A DNA stretch of 25,536 nt from a virus: the IMG/VR virus record IMGVR_UViG_3300020060_000025, positions 1 to 25,536 of that record. One strand, written 5' to 3'. Every line of letters starts with the position of its first letter. Within the stretch, counting starts at the first letter, position 1. Both the position numbers and the translations under genes were made by a program. The notes beneath the pieces are model-generated. The model had not been told where the DNA came from. It saw nothing but the letters and a program-made list of their open reading frames with translations, and searched no databases. This document shows, in pieces, positions 1,380 through 20,977 of the stretch.

Positions 1380-2162
1380 ATGAAATATTGCTCTAAATGC
1401 GATACCACAAAGCCCATCGAATATTTTTCCGCGAATAAGAAAAGCGCCGATGGATTGGATTGCAGGTGCCGTGCATGCGCTGTTGTGGCAGCTAGGGAAT
1501 GGCGACTTAAGAATCCAACCTATGACAAGGTGGCGCGCGCCTCTCACTACCTGACTAATCGCACATCAATACGTTCGAAACAACGACTTGGGTATTACAA
1601 GAATCATGAAGAAAGCAAGGCGAAACGCAGGGCCTATTACGCTGCCAACAAGCACTCTGTTCTAGAGAAGAACAGGGTTTATAGTAAACGCAGGCAACAA
1701 GGCTTGGCTGGTCTACCGAAGCCAATATTGCCTGTGACTATTCATAAGGCACGGAAAAGAACGTTTGCATCAGCGGAAGAACGTGAGGCATGGATTCGAC
1801 ATCGCAACGCTACATATATGCGTGAAGTAATGCGAAAGAGGCCCGGTATGGCATTGGCATTTTCTATGCGAAGAGCAATATGCAAGATATTCAAAGATAG
1901 AGGAATGCGTAAACGAGCTGCCACATTCGAATTGCTCGGATACACACCGGATGAACTAATATGTCATATGGAGAAGCAGTTTTTGCGAGGTATGACTTGG
2001 CGCAATTACGGCGATTGGGAATGCGACCATATAATCCCACTGTCATCTTTCGATTTGACCTCAGATCATGAAATCGTACGAGCAAATGCCTTGACGAATC
2101 TGCGCCCACTTTGGAAGAGTCAGAACAGGAAGAAGTACGCCAAGCGTCTCCATCTAATATGA
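1380..2162 (+). CDS. HNH endonuclease with N-terminal Cys cluster (homing type)
   Basis: This 260-residue protein opens with a treble-clef-like cysteine set: C4-x2-C7, then C30-x2-C33. A long Lys/Arg-rich middle (about 35-180) is probably for DNA binding. The C-terminus matches the phage HNH type: GYTPDEL at 187-193, GMTWRNYG near 204-211, DHIIPL at 216-221, LTNLRPLW at 238-245 and a final Asn249 in SQNRKK. Such enzymes cut DNA and often spread as free-standing homing endonucleases. It is on the opposite strand to the tail operon, with 14 bases to the start of one tail gene and 3 to the stop of the other. It is visibly AT-richer than its neighbours, which suggests recent arrival. Expression probably comes from the TGATATAAT promoter just before the ATG. 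No terminator is seen after it. Confidence 0.9.
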   Translation: MKYCSKCDTTKPIEYFSANKKSADGLDCRCRACAVVAAREWRLKNPTYDKVARASHYLTNRTSIRSKQRLGYYKNHEESKAKRRAYYAANKHSVLEKNRVYSKRRQQGLAGLPKPILPVTIHKARKRTFASAEEREAWIRHRNATYMREVMRKRPGMALAFSMRRAICKIFKDRGMRKRAATFELLGYTPDELICHMEKQFLRGMTWRNYGDWECDHIIPLSSFDLTSDHEIVRANALTNLRPLWKSQNRKKYAKRLHLI

Positions 2163-12959: not shown

Positions 12960-13184
12960 GAACGATCGCTTGCCCGATCGGACTCTCGACGGAGCGCTCC
13001 GCCGAATTTCGCCCAACAAAAAGGCCCGCACATGGCGGGCCTCTCTGCTGATGAATTGGTGCCGCTATCGCTGCGGCTGCGCCGGATTTGCTAGCTACCG
13101 AATCGCTCGCTTACCGGAGGATGGGATACCGCGGTTACCCATCCCATCGCGCAGCGTCGCCCATCGTTGCCGGACGGCGTGCGG
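12960..13184. other. Non-coding spacer rich in inverted repeats
   Basis: No credible gene lies between the DUF3168-like gene and the tail tube gene. Besides the terminator at 13017-13042, it holds CGATCG pairs (12963-12980), the palindrome CGGAGCGCTCCG (12990-13001), GCCGC/GCGGC (13061-13077), and the long repeat GGATGGG...CCCATCC (13119-13144) with an inner paired core. A 17-codon frame overlaps the upstream stop by ATGA but is probably chance. No clear -35/-10 pair was seen, although a tail promoter is expected here. Confidence 0.5.
13017..13042 (-). terminator. Rho-independent terminator upstream of the tail tube gene
   Basis: On the minus strand GGCCCGC (13041-13035), loop CATGT and GCGGGCC (13029-13023) are followed by TTTTTG. 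A perfect 7-base GC stem with a five-T run is a standard intrinsic terminator. It lies after the head and neck genes and before the tail genes, so it would separate the two transcripts or dampen read-through. Confidence 0.8.
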
Positions 13185-13541
13185 TCATCTTGGATTCCAA
13201 ACCTCGAGGTCGAAGGACCATCTATGCAAACCGGTCTCAGCCTCGTATGCGTACCAAGGACCAAACACGATGTGTCCTATACCTTCCGCGGCATTGACGC
13301 CTGCAATCATCATCTGCCGGCACTGAGATTGATTCGCGCTGTAGAAGTCGATCTGTACGCGCTGGTCATCATCTTCCGGGCTTCCATGAAGTTGGTTCTC
13401 AGGAACCGCCGTGGAGATGAACCAAATCACGTAGGGACGCGTCTGATCCTGCGGCGCGATGCCTTGCGAGATACGATCGCCGACGATGGTAACCAGCGCC
13501 GTAGAGCCCTCTAGCGCCGGCTGGACCGGAGGAATGATCAC
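13185..13541 (-). CDS. Tail completion/terminator protein (DUF3168-like)
   Basis: This 118-residue protein matches the DUF3168 style of tail completion protein: VTIVGDRISQGIAPQDQTRPYVIW-like strands near 17-41, then QRVQIDFYSANQSQCRQMM near 60-79, and a C-terminal ETGLHRWSFDLEVW. Such proteins cap the tail tube at the end that meets the head. The gene follows the HK97-gp10-like gene with an ATGA overlap, the usual order in siphophages. Transcription probably ends at the hairpin about 140 bases beyond its stop. Confidence 0.8.
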   Translation of the reverse strand: MIIPPVQPALEGSTALVTIVGDRISQGIAPQDQTRPYVIWFISTAVPENQLHGSPEDDDQRVQIDFYSANQSQCRQMMIAGVNAAEGIGHIVFGPWYAYEAETGLHRWSFDLEVWNPR

Positions 13542-14023
13542 CGCTTCAGCCTTGCAACCGATCGATCAATCGCCGCCGCGAGTTCCGACTTGATGATTTC
13601 CGGCAGCGTGCCCTTGTTCTCATCGAAGGCGGGGCGAAGGAACGGATACGGATTCATTCGGGATGTTCCGAACTCGAGGAAGCGCGCATAGAAGAGTGGG
13701 CCGTAGTAGTTGTATTCCAAGCCGATCCGACCCTGCCGAACGTTCGAAGAGTTGGACTTGTAGGCCTTCGCCTTTGCGCGAACCGTCACCTTTACCGAGA
13801 GCTGTCCATTGGGCGGCTTGCGATCGTTGGTGACGATAATGTTCTCTGCGAGCGTTCCTGTCTTGCGACGAACGCGAGCGATGGCTGATTGCTGCACCAC
13901 CTTTCCAGCCTTGCGCAGTGCCGCGCGGACAGGACTCAGCGCAGCCTTTGCGCCATATTCCTCGCCAAGCGCGCGCAGCTTTGCTTCCAGTTCCTTCAGG
14001 CCTAGGACTTGGACGGTTTCCAT
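13538..14023 (-). CDS. HK97-gp10-like neck/tail completion protein
   Basis: With ATG at 14023 this is 161 residues. It resembles the HK97 gp10 family: an N-terminal METVQVLGLKELEAKLRALG, the core ALRKAGKVVQQSAIARVRRK (about 34-53), then TGTLAENI, and the late motif ARFLEFGTSRMNPYPFLRPA (about 113-132). The family acts in head-tail joining and tail completion. The chosen ATG overlaps the TGA of the upstream glycosyltransferase gene by one base; a longer frame upstream starts inside that gene and is not needed. It resumes the standard neck order after the six-gene sugar cassette. Confidence 0.85.
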   Translation of the reverse strand: METVQVLGLKELEAKLRALGEEYGAKAALSPVRAALRKAGKVVQQSAIARVRRKTGTLAENIIVTNDRKPPNGQLSVKVTVRAKAKAYKSNSSNVRQGRIGLEYNYYGPLFYARFLEFGTSRMNPYPFLRPAFDENKGTLPEIIKSELAAAIDRSVARLKR

Positions 14024-14676
14024 CAGTACACAGCCTGCGATGCCGCATGTTCCTTGCGCCACAGTTCCGATCCCGGCGCATCCTTGTAGCGTTCAAACGC
14101 CGGGATGCCTGCCGTCCAGTGCATCAGCTTCGCGCCATAGACAGAATGGCCTTCATCGACCATGCGGTTCCACTCATCCGGAAGCTCGCCTATTTCTTCA
14201 TCCTTGCAGTGCGTCAGGCGCAACGCATCGACGGTTGCCGTCTCTGCCAGATTCATACTGCGCCATGACTCATGACCGCAATTTACGATCATCAGCGATG
14301 CCCAGTTCTTCCTCTCGTAGTTCAGGTTCGGGCACTCCATCGAAGTGCCCTTGTATTTGATCTTGTGCGCGGTCTTGTACTTCGGATGCTTGACCACTTG
14401 GACGGCGTACTGCGGATCGAAAAGCCCATCAAGTTCCGCAACGTCAGACAGCATCAGCATGTCGCAGGCGTCGGCGAAAATCGCGTGACCTTGGTAGCCC
14501 ATAAGGCTTGGCACAAGGAACCGTGACAGCGTGAAGGTGTTGGACCCTTCCGGCATTCCCATTGCCGAGAGCGGAACGATGGATACCGGCTCACTCGCGC
14601 GCTGGATGACGCTATGCGTGAACACGTGGAAGCCAACGCCCTCGCGCTGGTCGTACCCGCAAAACAGGTTGATCAT
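14023..14676 (-). CDS. Phage glycosyltransferase, GT-A type
   Basis: With ATG at 14676 this is 217 residues. The sequence fits a phage glycosyltransferase family: INLFCGYDQREGVGFHVF at 2-19, SRFLVPSLMGYQGHAIF near 51-67, then the metal-binding-like stretch ADACDML (68-74). Further marks are KHPKYKT near 96, ERKNWASLMIVNCGH at 121-135, ELPDEWNRMV near 164-173 and HWTAGIPAFERY at 186-197. It should transfer a sugar from a nucleotide donor in the cytoplasm; donor and acceptor are unknown. The start overlaps the methyltransferase stop by ATGA, and its stop shares a base with the gp10-like gene, so it is made together with neck proteins. Confidence 0.85.
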   Translation of the reverse strand: MINLFCGYDQREGVGFHVFTHSVIQRASEPVSIVPLSAMGMPEGSNTFTLSRFLVPSLMGYQGHAIFADACDMLMLSDVAELDGLFDPQYAVQVVKHPKYKTAHKIKYKGTSMECPNLNYERKNWASLMIVNCGHESWRSMNLAETATVDALRLTHCKDEEIGELPDEWNRMVDEGHSVYGAKLMHWTAGIPAFERYKDAPGSELWRKEHAASQAVY

Positions 14677-15248
14677 CTCCAGACAACCGCGAGCCGCGTC
14701 ATGCCGCCGTGATTGCACAGGTCTGCGACAGGGAGAATGTCCACCCTAGCGCCTGCTGCGATCAATTCATCCACCACGGCATTCGCCCCATATTCTGAAA
14801 GGTCAGGAACCCTGCCGTCGTGGCCAGCGCTATAAAAGTCATCGAAAACTATGCAGTCCGCATCCACTGAGCGGTAGTCACTGCGGATCGCCTCGACGCG
14901 GTGATCGCCGTCTATGAATGCGAAGTCAGCCGCAACGTGGCGACCGTGCAACGTCTCGCGCGTATCACCGATGACAAGTTCATAGGTGAACCCAGTCGGC
15001 ATCGCGTCCAGTACCTTCCTCGCCTCGCGTTCCGTTGGCGTTCCCTTGCCATTGAGCGCTTGCGCCTGGAACTCTTCGCCCATGGTGTCGAACACGTCAT
15101 AGCCGATGTAATGGACTTCCGGCGAACACTTCAGCGCCTCTCGGCATAGCTTGCTGGCACGAAGCGCCCGATGAACTCCGACTTCGACAATGGTCCGCGG
15201 CTTCACCTGTGTGATCAGTACAAGCATTTGGTCGTAGCGCTTAGCCAA
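14673..15248 (-). CDS. SAM-dependent class I methyltransferase
   Basis: This 191-residue protein starts with TTG at 15248, supported by GAGGGG about 8 bases upstream; the alternative is ATG seven codons in. It has a Rossmann methyltransferase layout: motif I TIVEVGVHRALRAS (19-32), an acidic strand end at YIGYDVFD (48-54), GDTRETL near 94-100, and the post-motif FAFIDGDHRVEA (109-120), common in sugar or small-molecule methyltransferases. The second Gly of motif I is not obvious. Within the sugar cassette its likely substrate is a transferred sugar or its precursor, but a protein target is possible. Confidence 0.85.
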   Translation of the reverse strand: MAKRYDQMLVLITQVKPRTIVEVGVHRALRASKLCREALKCSPEVHYIGYDVFDTMGEEFQAQALNGKGTPTEREARKVLDAMPTGFTYELVIGDTRETLHGRHVAADFAFIDGDHRVEAIRSDYRSVDADCIVFDDFYSAGHDGRVPDLSEYGANAVVDELIAAGARVDILPVADLCNHGGMTRLAVVWR

Positions 15249-15939
15249 GCCAGTACCCCTCGGTACGCGGACGCATCAAATCCGATTTGTGAGAACGTCC
15301 GGCAGACTTCCGCTTGCCCTTCAGGTGGTCAAGGCATGCACCAAGCGGACCATTTACCAGCGGGTGTCCAGTGGCCTCCGCATCGCCAGAGAGCGATACC
15401 GAACGAATGCCTGTCTCTTCCCTCACGCTGTCGATCGCCATGCAGTCGTGCCATTCCGGAAGATTGAATAGGCGATCGGTTCGGTACAGACGGACCACTT
15501 CCGCTACGAGCTCGGCCCCCTTGGGATTCCTGCGAATCATCATGAAGCCGGTTTCTGAATACTTCTTGGCGCGGCGCAGATAGCCGAAGTCGGCGTCACC
15601 GAGCAAGCCCGACAACCATGCCGCCGTCACGGGCGAATGCGTCACGCAATCGGCATCGATCCAGATCAGCACATCGCCATGCCCAACCCGGAACGCGAGT
15701 TGGATGGCAGCGACCTTATGCGCGAACCGGATGGCGTCGAACCGATAGTTATACGTCGGCAGATGGGAATGCCTGAGCTTGAACTCCGGCAGCCAGTCCG
15801 ACGCATCCTCTAGCGCCTGATCGTTGTACGTTCGAAGTTGGGTTGAGCCCCAGTGCTTGCGGAAAGTCTCCACGCATCGGTGCGCGTATTCGTTCCAATG
15901 CCTATCGGCGTATGTCGTCACGGCGTCGAAGGTCAGCAC
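15241..15939 (-). CDS. Glycosyltransferase with a DAD motif
   Basis: With GTG at 15939 this is 232 residues. AAGGGGA lies about 5 bases upstream of the GTG, which overlaps the previous stop by 7 bases. The GT-A pattern is clear: VLTFDAVTTYADRHWNEY at 1-18, KVAAIQLA near 75-82, the catalytic LIWIDADCVT at 91-100 (D95, D97), then YSETGFMMIRRNPKG at 127-141, WHDCMAID near 163-170 and GACLDHLKGKRKSAGRS near 200-216. The last motif recurs in a phage glycosyltransferase family I recognise. The DxD residues would bind a metal and a nucleotide sugar. A longer upstream frame was rejected, as it would overlap the neighbour by 170 bases. Confidence 0.85.
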   Translation of the reverse strand: MLTFDAVTTYADRHWNEYAHRCVETFRKHWGSTQLRTYNDQALEDASDWLPEFKLRHSHLPTYNYRFDAIRFAHKVAAIQLAFRVGHGDVLIWIDADCVTHSPVTAAWLSGLLGDADFGYLRRAKKYSETGFMMIRRNPKGAELVAEVVRLYRTDRLFNLPEWHDCMAIDSVREETGIRSVSLSGDAEATGHPLVNGPLGACLDHLKGKRKSAGRSHKSDLMRPRTEGYWLG

Positions 15940-16727
15940 AGCAATCCCCTTTCCTTCATGTGCGCCCAAGCCTGTCCAGACCGCATCTCGTCCAGCGTCC
16001 ATTGCAACCACGCGACATCGGCCAGGAACTGTTCCCGGCCTTCCAGTAATGGCGGGTCCGCGATCTGATCCATCGGCACGCTGAAGGCTGCCGCGGCGCC
16101 AGTAGCGCAATGGACCGGGACACCAGCCGTCAATGCGTCAATGGCTGAGTTCGAATGGTGCGTTACCCATGCCCACGCCGATTTCAGCGCCTCCGCAAGC
16201 GGGCGATCGTCGTAACCGAATCCTTCCATCAGCCGCGCGTTCTTGTCCTTCGGCTTGGGCCGGTACACAACCCGCTTGCCGCAGTCCTGCAAGGCCTCGG
16301 CTACCCTTCGCTCCCAGCCCATGTAACTGAACCCGTGCTCGGCGCAGGACTTCGCTGTTGAGCCGGCAATGACAATCTCATCCCCGCTCGAGCGCCACGG
16401 CTTGACCGAGACACCGAAGCCGCTGAGCCTGGAATCCGATAGCCCTGCCTTGACGTAGCGATCAGGACTCCAGCCGTTGATGCTGAATCGGTAGTGCGAC
16501 TCCCGGTGCCAGTACCCAAGATCCGCATAGATGAATCGCGGATACCGTTCCAGCGTCAGATGCCGCTTCCACCCGTAGGCTACGGCGCAATCGACGCCCG
16601 GCGACATCGGCGCAGTGATCTCGCGAATGATCGGCACGTCACCGCATGCCGCTATCCCCTTAGCCATTGCCTCAGCAATGTCTCGGTATCGGTGCAGGCG
16701 ATGATGGGTAAGGCAGGCGACCTTCAT
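15933..16727 (-). CDS. Putative glycosyltransferase-like protein, paralogue B
   Basis: This 264-residue protein has a two-domain look. The N-terminal half includes YPRFIYADLGYWHRESHYRF (about 62-81) and GFGVSVKPWRSSGDEIVIAG near 102-121. The C-terminal half has KRVVYRPKPKDKNARL near 149-164, then HHSNSAIDALTAGVPV near 188-203, ending WLQWTLDEMRSGQAW. The HHSNSAIDALTAGVP segment resembles the nucleotide-sugar-binding loop of GT-B or capsule-export-like proteins. It shares three motifs with the upstream gene, so the two are probably paralogues. ATGA-type overlaps join it to its neighbours. No donor or acceptor can be named. Confidence 0.65.
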   Translation of the reverse strand: MKVACLTHHRLHRYRDIAEAMAKGIAACGDVPIIREITAPMSPGVDCAVAYGWKRHLTLERYPRFIYADLGYWHRESHYRFSINGWSPDRYVKAGLSDSRLSGFGVSVKPWRSSGDEIVIAGSTAKSCAEHGFSYMGWERRVAEALQDCGKRVVYRPKPKDKNARLMEGFGYDDRPLAEALKSAWAWVTHHSNSAIDALTAGVPVHCATGAAAAFSVPMDQIADPPLLEGREQFLADVAWLQWTLDEMRSGQAWAHMKERGLLC

Positions 16728-17434
16728 TGCGCGAAGCCGTCCAGCAAACGGCTGAACGCTTCGCCTGATCGAATTTCGCTAAGGCTCGACTGCCCCCACG
16801 CCAATTCCCTGAACATGCGCAACCGATCCTCGTCCGTGTTTTTTTGAGTGCCGATCCAATGCGGCATGTGCGATTCAACAGGGATGCCCCACAGCAGCGC
16901 CTTGATGGCCGCGCCGCTTCCCCACGTCACAACCTTCCCGGCGTTTGCAAGATCGTCTTGCAGCGGCTTTGGCTTCGATCTGGCCGGATGCGGCCGGATC
17001 CTCCCGGCTTGGTGCGCCGGCCAGTTCCTTGGCATCCCGTTTGCCCCGATCCCTCTTGATGGCAGCACAACGGTTTCGCCGCTCGTCCGCCACGGCTCCA
17101 ATTCGACGCCCAGAGAATCCCAGCGTTCCGGACCGCCCACAGGAAACATCCCGGCGGTGTTGTGGTAGTTCCGGGCCAGCGTGTACCAGTTCTGGCCGGC
17201 GAGCTCGTTACCCCAGCTCGCGTTCTCCGTCACGATGACCGGAAGGCCGCGCCTTTCGAACTCCTGCGCCGCCATCTGGCCTGACCCGATTCGGTTCCAT
17301 GTACAAAGCACGTCGCCGCGCTTCGGCTGCGTCGTGCAGCCCTCGCACACCGAATAGCCAAGCCGCGTCAGGCCTTCTATGAATACCGCCCTGCGCTCAG
17401 GTACGGTGTACCGAAGATTCAGCCATGCGCGCAT
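16724..17434 (-). CDS. Putative glycosyltransferase-like protein, paralogue A
   Basis: This is a 236-residue protein with ATG at 17434, overlapping the upstream gene by 16 bases. It shares with its downstream neighbour the motifs LGVELEPWRTSGETVVLPS (about 108-126), WGSGAAIKALLWGIPVESH (about 171-189) and the ending LAWGQSSLSEIRSGEAFSRL. It also has WNRIGSGQMAAQEFERRG near 46-63 and IVTENASWGNELAGQNWY near 67-84. The match to paralogue B is strong in the C-terminal half, where GSGAAIKALLWGIP would be the sugar-nucleotide loop. Function is inferred from context only. Confidence 0.6.
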   Translation of the reverse strand: MRAWLNLRYTVPERRAVFIEGLTRLGYSVCEGCTTQPKRGDVLCTWNRIGSGQMAAQEFERRGLPVIVTENASWGNELAGQNWYTLARNYHNTAGMFPVGGPERWDSLGVELEPWRTSGETVVLPSRGIGANGMPRNWPAHQAGRIRPHPARSKPKPLQDDLANAGKVVTWGSGAAIKALLWGIPVESHMPHWIGTQKNTDEDRLRMFRELAWGQSSLSEIRSGEAFSRLLDGFAQ

Positions 17435-17949
17435 TCTGCCAACGCTTCGTCCAGTGACATTTTAGGAAAGCACTCCAGCGCGGAATCCGGAGTGCAGTTG
17501 ATCACTTCGGCGCGAGGCGGCGTCTTCCCGACCCTCGCGAACTGGACTTGGAAATGCTTGAACCGGTGCGGCGGTGTATTCCGCAACGGCTCCGGATGCG
17601 GCCCGAAGTAGTGCGTGCCTTGCATGTCGAAGCCGAGCAACAGAATCCGGGTGGCGCCCAGCATCTTCGCGACATGGATAGCGAGAACCCCGGAACTGCT
17701 GCCCGTCGAGATATCGCCGGCATTCGTTACCTGATCGACGCCAGTTATCCGGTTCGTCGAGAACTTGCGTCCCTTGAAATCGTGCGCGTCCTTGTGGTGC
17801 CGCCACCATCCTGCATCCTGCGCCACCAAGGCCATCGCGTCAGGACGAAGGCGGAAGGCATCGTTGACAACGATCGTCGGAATATCGCGCACGCTGTCGG
17901 CTACGGCCTGAGACATGCTCGGGCCAGTGGCGAGGATCGCGACGATCAT
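17419..17949 (-). CDS. DUF115/Maf-like putative glycosyltransferase
   Basis: This 176-residue protein begins VAILATGPSMSQAVADSV, the GPS loop of DUF115-type and Maf-like proteins. Known relatives modify flagellin with sialic-acid-like sugars or resemble sialyltransferases. Further marks are IPTIVVNDAFRLRPDA (about 23-38) and the late core STGSSSGVLAIHVAKMLG (about 81-98), then ATRILLLGFDMQGTHYF (about 99-115). It is shorter than flagellin Maf proteins and may be the catalytic core alone. It starts the six-gene cassette, its ATGA overlapping the end of the head-closure gene, so it is translated straight after a neck gene. Confidence 0.7.
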   Translation of the reverse strand: MIVAILATGPSMSQAVADSVRDIPTIVVNDAFRLRPDAMALVAQDAGWWRHHKDAHDFKGRKFSTNRITGVDQVTNAGDISTGSSSGVLAIHVAKMLGATRILLLGFDMQGTHYFGPHPEPLRNTPPHRFKHFQVQFARVGKTPPRAEVINCTPDSALECFPKMSLDEALAECAHG

Positions 17950-18278
17950 GTGATGACGCCAGCACTCACCGGCAGAGTCAGATATTCGAGGCCGGACACC
18001 GGATCCGAAAGCATGCCTTCGATATTGAACACCGTGCTGCCGTGCAGAATCCGCATGGACGCCTTCAAGCCCGGCCTATGCCGAATCGTGATACGTGCCG
18101 ACACTTTGGACTGAACCTGCTGCGCTGCGATGAACTCGCGCGCGGACAGTGGTTCGATTGACGCCCATACCGTGGCGAAGTGCGCCCAGTAGGTATCGTT
18201 CTCTCCGAAGCTGTTCTTGGTGGTGACCTGTTCCTCTATCACCACGCGATGGCGGAGTTTCCCGGCCGCGATTGCCAC
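17946..18278 (-). CDS. Head closure protein (SPP1 gp16/HK97-type adaptor)
   Basis: With GTG at 18278 this is 110 residues. The GTG shares one base with the TAG of the upstream connector gene. The sequence fits the head-tail joining family: GKLRHRVVIEEQ at 6-17, YWAHFATVWASIEPLSAREF near 30-49, a strand KVSARITIRHRPGL near 57-70, and the end GLEYLTLPVSAGVIT. It closes the filled head and offers a surface for the tail. A longer reading frame upstream starts inside the neighbouring gene and was rejected. Confidence 0.85.
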   Translation of the reverse strand: MAIAAGKLRHRVVIEEQVTTKNSFGENDTYWAHFATVWASIEPLSAREFIAAQQVQSKVSARITIRHRPGLKASMRILHGSTVFNIEGMLSDPVSGLEYLTLPVSAGVIT

Positions 18279-18688
18279 TAGGCCACCGTCGACTTCCGAA
18301 GCGCCGCAAGCAAAGCCGTAGCCCCATTGCAAAGCGTGTAGCCATATCCCGCGTCGGCAGGAACAGAGTTCGTCCCATCGCCCTCGCGGAATCGGAATTG
18401 CGAGGCGAGCTCCACCAGTACCGCTGCTCGGACAACCGGCTTGACCGTGAAGGCGCCGCTCGAGTCCTCGATGGGGATGGGTTCGCCGGAACTGTCCTCG
18501 ATTACGTTGCCGTCCGCGTCCGTTTCCAACACGTAGAGGCGCCACTCGTCTTTCAGCCAGCGCGCAACGGACTCCGAAATCGCAGGAATGAAGATCGACA
18601 ACCACGGGTCATCCGCGCCGCCGTTGCTATCGATCTCGTCAAGGCGAAGCTGCGCGCGAGCGTCGGCTTGGGTGACGAGCTCAAGCAT
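18278..18688 (-). CDS. Head-tail connector protein (gp6-like)
   Basis: At 136 residues, this matches the phage head-tail connector (QLRG/gp6-like) family. The N-terminal helix LVTQADARAQLRLDE (about 4-18) carries the AQLRLDE mark. IFIPAISESVARWL (about 32-45) follows, and late in the protein VVRAAVLVELASQFRFREGD (about 85-104). A ring of this protein sits under the portal. ATG at 18688 overlaps the collagen-like gene by 8 bases. The extra DADGNVIEDSSGEPIPIEDS segment (about 57-76) is a probable surface loop. Confidence 0.9.
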   Translation of the reverse strand: MLELVTQADARAQLRLDEIDSNGGADDPWLSIFIPAISESVARWLKDEWRLYVLETDADGNVIEDSSGEPIPIEDSSGAFTVKPVVRAAVLVELASQFRFREGDGTNSVPADAGYGYTLCNGATALLAALRKSTVA

Positions 18689-19592
18689 TGCCGTTCACCA
18701 ACTTCACGGGCTCGTCTGGCTTGAATGCCTTTCCAGGCTCGCCACGTTCGCCGTCACGGCCCTTGCGCGCGCCTATGCGCCAATCCGGGCTCTCGCGGCA
18801 CGGCTTCGCATCGGTATCCCGCTTCGCAATCCACCAGCTACCGTCGTTTGTCCAGCCGTCTCCAGCCTTCGCCTTGGTGCCTTCGCGCCAGTAGCCGCGA
18901 TCTATGACAGTCGGGACGATGAAAGTCTTCGTGCGCTCGACTTCGCCGCGCTTCCATCGGAATGTGAAGCTGCGCTCGCCGTCGAAGTCGATATCTAGGT
19001 CGTCGAATCCGAGACCGTCGATTCCGTTTTCGCCGTTGCCGCCATCCTTACCGACGACGACGCCCAACTTGATCGGATCGCCCTTGGTTGTCGTGACGAT
19101 CAGACAGCCTTCGCGGTCGATCATTGCGCCGGCTAGGCCGCAGCCGTCTGCTCCAGAATCACCCTTCTCGCCACGTTCGCCAGCAATGCCTTGATCGCCG
19201 TCGTTGCCGTCCTGGCCGTGCTGCACAGGGTTGTTCTCGAAATGCTTCTGCACCGCTTCGGCGACATGCATATCCACCAGCGTCTTGATTTCCGTGCAGG
19301 TCAGCAGTTCGTAGACCACCTCCTTTACATCGATCGGATCGGCGTCGCGTCCGGCCGTACCTGCTTCTCCCTTCTCGCCTTGCAGTCCCGTCGCTCCGGC
19401 ATCGCCTTTCTCGCCGGCAACGCCAATTGGGCCGACGTCACCCGGCGTTCCCTGCGGACCAGCATCGCCCTTCTCGCCGCGCTCAGGCTGGCGCGCCTCC
19501 AATTCAGCAATGCGCTTCACCAGCGGGTCCGTCACTTCGCGGATAAGGTCACCCACTGACCGGCCAAACTCGACGGGATCAAACTCGGTCAT
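18681..19592 (-). CDS. Collagen-like fibrous protein, probable head fibre
   Basis: This 303-residue protein is a trimer-type fibre. Residues 1-36 are likely coiled coil (DPLVKRIAELEARQ). A collagen Gly-X-Y run spans about 39-83 (GEKGDAGPQGTPGDVGPIG), and another about 126-152 (GQDGNDGDQGIAGERGEKG), with shorter ones near 181-193 and 278-288. The C-terminal part holds GYWREGTKAKAGDGWTNDGS then WWIAKRDTDAKP and DWRIGARKGRDG, a small domain seen in other phage head-region proteins and similar to carbohydrate-binding modules. It lies between portal and connector genes, coupled by ATGA to the portal. Its place suggests a head or neck whisker; glycosylation by the nearby cassette is conceivable but unproven. 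Confidence 0.8.
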   Translation of the reverse strand: MTEFDPVEFGRSVGDLIREVTDPLVKRIAELEARQPERGEKGDAGPQGTPGDVGPIGVAGEKGDAGATGLQGEKGEAGTAGRDADPIDVKEVVYELLTCTEIKTLVDMHVAEAVQKHFENNPVQHGQDGNDGDQGIAGERGEKGDSGADGCGLAGAMIDREGCLIVTTTKGDPIKLGVVVGKDGGNGENGIDGLGFDDLDIDFDGERSFTFRWKRGEVERTKTFIVPTVIDRGYWREGTKAKAGDGWTNDGSWWIAKRDTDAKPCRESPDWRIGARKGRDGERGEPGKAFKPDEPVKLVNGNA

Positions 19593-20977
19593 TGCAGTAC
19601 CCTTGTTCGCATGGCGTCGGCAGCCTTTCGTGAGTTCACGTAGCTCAATAGCCGTTTGTTTTCGTCTGCCGTAGCTGCAATTGCGGGATCAGGTTCCGGA
19701 GCTGGCGCAGGCAGCGCTGGCTGCATATTCGGATCCCAATCGGCGCGATCGGCCAGCATGCCCAACGGGTAATCCTGATTCTGGCCCCACAGCGTATCGC
19801 CGCCGCCAGTCGGCGCGAGGTTGAACCGCAAACGCGCTTCGTCCGGCGTCTTGATCTTGCCGCTTACGAGCGCGGTTTCTACCTCTGCCTGCTTGCCAAC
19901 GTCCATGCGCAAAAGCGGCTCTGTGTCCATCCAGATACCCAGCTTCGAAGGAATCGAAAGCCCCTCGTCCAGCAGGTTTTCCATGGACTCGATCGGCCCG
20001 CTCAGCGCGTCGTCGTAGTACAGGAGGTTGATGGCATCCACACCAAGCCCGGCCGGAATCGAACCGATACCGATCTTGAACGGAGGAATCCCGAAGGGCT
20101 GGCAAATCTGCTCGTCGCTGTAGCGCATCTGCTCGACGAGCTGAGAGTCGGCAGACTTCATCGCGAACGGCGTGAACTTCATATCGGCGCCGATCACAGC
20201 GATCTTGCCGGTATTGGCGCCACCGTAATTCTTATTCCAGTAGGCCTTGATGGCTTCGGCGTCTGGATCCGACATGCCTGCAGGCGCGGTCAGGATGCCG
20301 CCAGGCTGCGAGTTGTTCGCGAAGAAATCGGCAGCACTCTTGAGGATCTTGAGATTCTTGATCGCCGGCCAGTGCGCTGCGCACAGCGGCGGCACGCCGA
20401 TAAGCTGATGGTGGAAACAGTTCAGGCGATCGTGAATGATTTCGCGGGCAGGAATGATCAGCTGCTCGGCTGGGTAGTTCGCCGGCAACAGGTTCTCGGC
20501 GGTCGAATAGTTGAGCTGATAGAACACGTCGCCGCTGTCCGACACCAGCGGAAGAACGCTGCAAGGATCCAGCACGTACAGGCGCGTTACGACATTGCGA
20601 TCGTCGCGCCCCTTGAGGATGTAGGCATTGCCATGGATCATCCGCGACAGCGCCCAAGCCTCGCGGAACTGTTGCGCAGTCTGGTAGTGATTGGGCTTCT
20701 TGAGGACCGGCGAGTACGAAGGATTCTGGACTACCTTCTCCGTCCCGTTGTCCTGCATCGCCTTCAAGAGGAACGGCAGCTTGCCGATGTCCTGAGAGAT
20801 GCGATTAAGGCAGGCGTATAGCGTCGGGTAGCACAGCAACGTGCTCCGCTTTTCCTCAACGTTCATTTGCCACGCGCCGGAAAACGGTTCCAATATCCGC
20901 CGCCATCCGTCGCGCCAGCCGGAGACGGCATGCAGAGCTTTCTCCACTCGCCGTATCTCCAACCCGAATAGTTTCAT
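19589..20977 (-). CDS. Phage portal protein (HK97-type)
   Basis: This 462-residue protein forms the dodecameric portal for DNA passage. HK97-type marks appear in order: LCYPTLYACLNRISQDIGKLPF (about 48-69), then the FREAWALSRMIHGNAYIL zone, LYVLDPCSVLPL near 128-139, SADFFANNSQPGGIL near 211-225, and QICQPFGIPPFKIG in the middle. The C-terminal part has a long helical stretch and ends ADAMRTRVLQ. ATG follows the upstream stop directly (TAA then ATG). The gene stands after the capsid gene and before the connectors, unlike the common order in which the portal comes first. Confidence 0.93.
   Translation of the reverse strand: MKLFGLEIRRVEKALHAVSGWRDGWRRILEPFSGAWQMNVEEKRSTLLCYPTLYACLNRISQDIGKLPFLLKAMQDNGTEKVVQNPSYSPVLKKPNHYQTAQQFREAWALSRMIHGNAYILKGRDDRNVVTRLYVLDPCSVLPLVSDSGDVFYQLNYSTAENLLPANYPAEQLIIPAREIIHDRLNCFHHQLIGVPPLCAAHWPAIKNLKILKSAADFFANNSQPGGILTAPAGMSDPDAEAIKAYWNKNYGGANTGKIAVIGADMKFTPFAMKSADSQLVEQMRYSDEQICQPFGIPPFKIGIGSIPAGLGVDAINLLYYDDALSGPIESMENLLDEGLSIPSKLGIWMDTEPLLRMDVGKQAEVETALVSGKIKTPDEARLRFNLAPTGGGDTLWGQNQDYPLGMLADRADWDPNMQPALPAPAPEPDPAIAATADENKRLLSYVNSRKAADAMRTRVLQ

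Follow-up and report, generated by a model that had tools for sequence, protein, structure and literature searches.

Glycosylation of virions has so far been documented for a few mycobacteriophages, glycosylated particles being reported for Che8, Corndog and Myrna (PMC12363180). Corndog (cluster O) encodes an O-methyltransferase, two glycosyltransferases (GTs) and an N-acetylglucosaminyltransferase (gp35-gp38) inside the virion structural operon (PMC4351075). Here we describe a locus in the IMG/VR virus record IMGVR_UViG_3300020060_000025 (25,536 bases, analysed at full length and called the window below), where six minus-strand genes (17949-14023), G1 to G6, lie between the gene of head closure protein Hc1 and a gp10/Neck1 gene. 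Among relatives G1 is constant, and the accompanying GTs and methyltransferases, which come from unrelated families, are exchangeable. As in Corndog and Che8, phage-encoded GTs are found in or near the structural operon. The likeness to Corndog, whose virion is reported to be glycosylated, extends to the combination of methyl- and glycosyltransferase genes within that operon. Differently from the window, the Corndog genes are located between portal and protease in a phage of an actinobacterial host, and the passages on Corndog mention no site at which enzyme sets alternate.

Closer counterparts exist in phages of Gram-negative hosts. The Pseudomonas phages PAJU2 and D3 combine a G1 homologue with a GT9 glycosyltransferase and a methyltransferase (ORF010-012 in PAJU2; orf7, orf12 and orf13 in D3). 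In PAJU2 the set sits exactly between Hc1 and Neck1, while in D3 the G1 homologue precedes Ad1 and only the GT9 and methyltransferase genes occupy the Hc1-Neck1 interval. Both versions comprise three genes only, and their GT and methyltransferase, for which the records give family names only, are not homologous to those of the window. The Caulobacter phage CcrColossus is nearer in content, with G1-G2-G3-G6-methyltransferase-GT9 in the same order (gp126-gp131), but this is a giant phage lacking G4 in the set, which follows directly after a tail gene and precedes the lysis genes. Finally, P1 carries a G1 homologue (pmgO) and an annotated glycosyltransferase (pmgQ) in one gene cluster, where, in contrast to the window, they are accompanied by pmgP and a protein phosphatase. 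Both pmgO and pmgQ are dispensable for P1 (PMC10695390), which fits decoration rather than assembly.

How common is such an insert? So that the cassette itself played no part in the selection, phages were picked by their portal protein only, from viral contigs and GTDB genomes, and portals were merged at 95% identity. The Hc1/gp10 site could be read across in 46 lineages, a sample rather than a census, of which 25 are filled, 19 empty and 2 both. An empty site is one with no open reading frame (ORF) of at least 120 amino acids (aa), a few such loci carrying G1 elsewhere nearby; occupancy was scored automatically, by ORF chains and profile labels, and single loci may therefore be misread. G1 belongs to the insert in all filled or mixed lineages but one (26 of 27), the exception being a Paracoccus locus with unrelated ORFs. 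Around G1, the GT partners come from unrelated families (GT2, GT-B group 1, GT9, GT-D, GT8 and KpsC-like) and are joined by methyltransferases (Methyltransf_11, 23 and 24, and FkbM) and sugar-nucleotide epimerases. Besides the G1-G2-G3-G4-G5-G6 order of the window, insert types include a common short set (G1-Methyltransf_11-GT2), that of PAJU2 (G1-GT9-Methyltransf_23), a longer one (G1-G2-GT-B-G3-Methyltransf_11-G6) and others with GT-D, an FkbM methyltransferase or a sugar epimerase. One locus (L031, 400-1071) has a homing endonuclease gene between Hc1 and G1.

A clean empty site is seen in Stenotrophomonas phage SOVA965 (portal 64% identical), where Hc1 and gp10 are joined by a 4-base overlap. 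Clean excision as the origin of empty sites is rejected by a pair of phages with portals in one 95% group (L106 and L095). Their DNA is about 86% identical up to the Ad1 stop, around 12585, and unrelated beyond it, with different neck and tail genes and a sharp module border at Ad1/Hc1, which argues for module exchange and not deletion. Scans with G1, G2, G3, G4 and G6 recovered the same neck arrangement or analogous cassettes in dozens of contigs, so that the genome-neighbourhood search proposed in the initial annotation of this DNA did find the set in relatives.

The insertion point itself is not fixed. Apart from D3 and CcrColossus, a prophage of the Luteimonas family has G1-G2-x-G3-x-G6 upstream of Hc1-gp10. 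Across 297 genomes of that family, all seven strong G1 matches fall in prophage head-tail operons, and five weak matches represent segments of large proteins (about 900-1,300 aa). Peptide patterns confirmed no G1 in host genomes, and prophages gave the route instead. As G1 sets may precede Ad1 or Hc1 or follow a tail gene, the cassette goes with virion operons and not with one insertion point. The initial annotation had considered the cassette unusual and translationally locked into the neck block. This calls for some nuance: inserts are common (about half of the related lineages), D3 and PAJU2 have small versions, and the cassette also occurs outside the Hc1/gp10 junction.

In the window, the six-gene arrangement is real and conserved. 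G1 (17419..17949, minus strand as are all six) encodes 176 aa, G2 (16724..17434) 236 aa, G3 (15933..16727) 264 aa, G4 (15241..15939) 232 aa, G5 (14673..15248) 191 aa and G6 (14023..14676) 217 aa. Overlaps amount to 4 bases at Hc1/G1, 16 at G1/G2, 4 at G2/G3, 7 at G3/G4, 8 at G4/G5, 4 at G5/G6 and 1 at G6/gp10, where the ATG of gp10 overlaps the G6 stop. Orthologues support the starts of all six frames, including the GTG of G4 (at 15939, kept in eight orthologues) and the TTG of G5 (at 15248). Each family has orthologues in independent contigs; most share about 50-70% identity and the motifs are conserved, and therefore the frames are not due to chance. A recent foreign insertion was also considered and rejected, the guanine-cytosine content of the cassette (57-62%) equalling that of the structural genes (58-61%). 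All frames and the 1-16 base overlaps proposed in the initial annotation are thus confirmed, and the family assignments given below bear out the glycan and methyl character that it ascribed to the set, together with its Maf-like G1 and its pair of paralogous GT-like genes.

G1 is probably a DUF115/MptE-like Rossmann enzyme, distantly GT42 sialyltransferase-like, with enzyme-like conserved motifs. MptE-like PF01973 matches 16 of 30 family members, the window protein itself scoring below the gathering threshold. Its match to PHROG 4603 (1e-37) bears the label "alpha-2,3-sialyltransferase", which was not accepted at face value: fold and profile support the wider class only. The profile match to GT42 CstII is weak (E 0.009) and covers the SG...GxDM stretch. 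The AlphaFold2 model is confident (predicted local distance difference test score, pLDDT, 95), and its structural neighbours in a viral library include DUF115/MptE-like proteins. A search of the model against the PDB gave no match at E<=0.001, the closest entries being thiamine pyrophosphokinases and general Rossmann folds. DUF115/Maf-type relatives are known to attach sugars to flagellin.

G2 and G3 are about 22% identical and belong to one profile family by iterative search. G2 is of the GT-B type, and its model (pLDDT 94) finds KrkA (1.4e-4) and KpsC (2.5e-4) in Foldseek, both at probability 1.00; 11 of its 12 structural matches at E<0.001 are KrkA, KpsC or WbbB (probability 0.99-1.00), and the family profile matches KpsC at 4e-4. 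Superposition is modest, with query TM-scores of 0.41-0.52. The likeness resides in the fold and the C-terminal donor-site region, whereas G2 is shorter and only 10-14% identical to these proteins. G2, as modelled, and G3, by family membership, would thus adjoin the transferases of cytidine monophosphate-activated 3-deoxy-D-manno-octulosonic acid (CMP-Kdo). G3 also matches weakly the putative glycosyltransferase family DUF6716. In one related cassette (L194, the G233 prophage) the match to the G2 gene contains one in-frame TGA.

Of the remaining enzymes, G4 is a GT-A type glycosyltransferase with an invariant WxDxDxV (DxD) motif (W87, D89 and D91 are constant in nine sequences) and a match to Glycos_transf_2 at 0.044. 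G5 is a methyltransferase dependent on S-adenosylmethionine, matching Methyltransf_24 (PF13578, 1.3e-4) and keeping the invariant motifs ExG, D44, FIDGxH and DD; a weak PHROG match (1e-6) is named DNA methyltransferase. G6 is a putative GT8-like GT-A glycosyltransferase that matches PHROG 28018 (9e-28). Glyco_transf_8 (PF01501) matches 7 of 23 members of its family (best 5e-9), and the G6 profile finds WbbM (3e-3) and GT8 (1e-2). At residues 69-72, the window clade has DxxD (DACD, DASD or DGSD) in place of the DxD (DCD) of CcrColossus and the sister clade; for a metal-binding motif, such a change is unusual.

What could such a cassette be for? With moderate confidence, gene content and position suggest an exchangeable glycan-and-methyl module that is co-expressed with the late head and tail genes and acts in the cytoplasm, decorating virion proteins during assembly. 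G1, as the sole constant enzyme, would perform the first step or the step adapted to the phage. G2 and G3 could then draw on the host pool of nucleotide-activated sugars and attach Kdo-like or other residues, further sugars may be appended by G4 and G6, and G5 may methylate a sugar. Swapping the outer GTs and methyltransferases would alter the surface while G1 stays. Gene content, family assignments, site occupancy, swapping and placement in the late operon are read from the sequences; we infer that the enzymes are catalytically active, that the steps follow this order, that the virion is the acceptor and that some benefit results. Virion decoration is favoured by the late-operon placement, the lack of a transporter or clear membrane protein, and the precedent of Corndog, Che8 and Myrna. 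No clear membrane segment is seen in G2-G6 and no promoter-like site in 13100-19600; the cassette genes should therefore follow late transcription and stay silent in the lysogen. Such late-operon expression fits virion decoration. In these respects, and in its late-operon position, the cassette differs from gtr-type serotype-conversion loci, as gtr-type O-antigen clusters include membrane proteins, with flippase and glucosyltransferase genes under a promoter of their own.

Several observations weigh against virion decoration. Gene order does not reveal the acceptor, and the state of the cassette follows each head and tail gene to a similar degree (36-41 of 45). A virion gene following cassette presence was sought as a guide to the acceptor and this approach was rejected, since MTP, the highest, is not distinguishable from the others; nearest-neighbour tests likewise did not single out the neck, fibre or tail proteins that the initial annotation had named as targets. 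The collagen-like fibre (18681-19592) was also tried as the glycan target, but 10 of 33 filled loci and 4 of 25 empty ones have Gly-X-Y runs of 6 or more, which is no clear association. G1 can be placed in a broad fold class only, and its best PDB matches, the thiamine pyrophosphokinases, superpose poorly. The nucleophile Asp of KpsC was not located in G2 or G3, the profile match beginning past the D160 region. Moreover, relatives of G2 (KpsC and WbbB) and of several partner enzymes act on glycans of capsule or lipopolysaccharide (LPS), which makes a cell-surface acceptor chemically plausible.

It is on this last point that the strongest alternative builds, namely a late change of the host surface in which lipid A-core, O-antigen or capsule precursors are altered during lytic growth, so that progeny avoid debris or siblings are excluded. 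The resemblance of G2 and G3 to Kdo transferases of LPS and capsule, the match of the G6 profile to WbbM, an O-antigen enzyme, and the annotation of the PAJU2/D3 partner in several relatives as GT9, a heptosyltransferase family, all agree with it, as does a putative acetyltransferase elsewhere in PAJU2. Detreviruses are, in addition, known for O-antigen conversion. However, genes embedded in the neck operon without a promoter of their own are probably silent in the lysogen, where conversion genes act, a flippase or membrane polymerase is not evident in the cassette sets seen, and the strong G1 matches lie only in prophage head-tail regions and not in chromosomal surface loci. We therefore regard a host-surface role as unlikely, though a serious contender.

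Alternatively, G1-type proteins might themselves be minor parts of the virion or of its assembly machinery, the other enzymes being passengers. Depositors labelled both PAJU2 ORF010 (AP009624.1 7780-8349) and its counterpart in the Klebsiella jumbo phage Eowyn (LR881104.1 2303-2875) "structural protein", one label perhaps being copied from the other, and pmgO of P1 is filed as putative morphogenetic. Against this speak the vacant site of about 40% of the related lineages, the dispensability of pmgO and the enzyme-like motifs of G1, and we hold this to be improbable. DNA can be a substrate of phage glycosyl- and methyltransferases, but a target in phage DNA or in a non-envelope component of the infected cell (e.g., nucleotide hypermodification or a defence-evasion target), to which the name of the weak PHROG match of G5 would point, seems very improbable given enzymes of sugar, protein or LPS-type families, a Pfam match of G5 to Methyltransf_24 and no DNA methylase family, and cassettes in which none of the genes seen serves base modification or nucleotide synthesis.

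Returning to virion decoration, the window belongs to a known kind, the virion-operon glycan cassettes, and what stands out is the modular turnover and the presence in well-studied phages; a search of open-licence papers gave no earlier account of this neck site as a glycan hotspot. Tentatively, the locus could be a hypervariable virion-glycan locus of Gram-negative temperate phages, in which a protein-modifying G1 is fixed at the neck operon while outer GTs and methyltransferases are exchanged like O-antigen genes, giving a strain-specific particle "serotype" built partly of host CMP-ulosonic acids. If virion decoration holds, glycosylated virions would occur also among temperate phages with Gram-negative hosts such as Pseudomonas, Stenotrophomonas and Luteimonas, which would suggest that phages diversify their particle surface through sugar-gene swaps at a single site. 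This reading also gives D3 orf7/12/13, PAJU2 ORF010-012 and P1 pmgO/pmgQ, genes long without an assigned role, a function that can be tested, with relatives with empty sites and P1 deletion mutants as controls at hand.

Among 50,697 phage records, none matches the window closely at the DNA level. Its late genes are all on the minus strand, in the order terminase, protease, HK97-type capsid (PF05065), portal, collagen-like protein, Ad1, Hc1, the six cassette genes, gp10/Neck1, tail completion gp17, lambda-type tail tube (PF16460), tape measure and tail-tip genes. Of the two flanks, Hc1 (17946..18278, minus strand) matches Phage_HCP (PF05521, 1e-29) and PHROG head closure Hc1 (2e-31), and begins with a GTG that shares 1 base with the Ad1 stop. 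The HK97 gp10-like/Neck1 tail completion protein (13538..14023, minus strand) matches PF04883 (1e-10) and PHROG 5 (Neck1, 4e-25). Since the Ad1/Hc1 and gp10/tail-completion junctions overlap too, the tight packing is ordinary for a phage late operon. The collagen-like gene comes directly after the portal gene; the C-terminal part of its product matches PHROG portal families, and its long Gly-X-Y runs come and go among relatives. On the strand opposite the tail genes, an ORF of 260 aa (1380-2162, plus strand) has CxxC pairs and an HNH-like ending by eye and no Pfam match. The gene after the tape measure (7424-5961) encodes Ig-like He_PIG domains (2e-23), a type often linked with surface binding.

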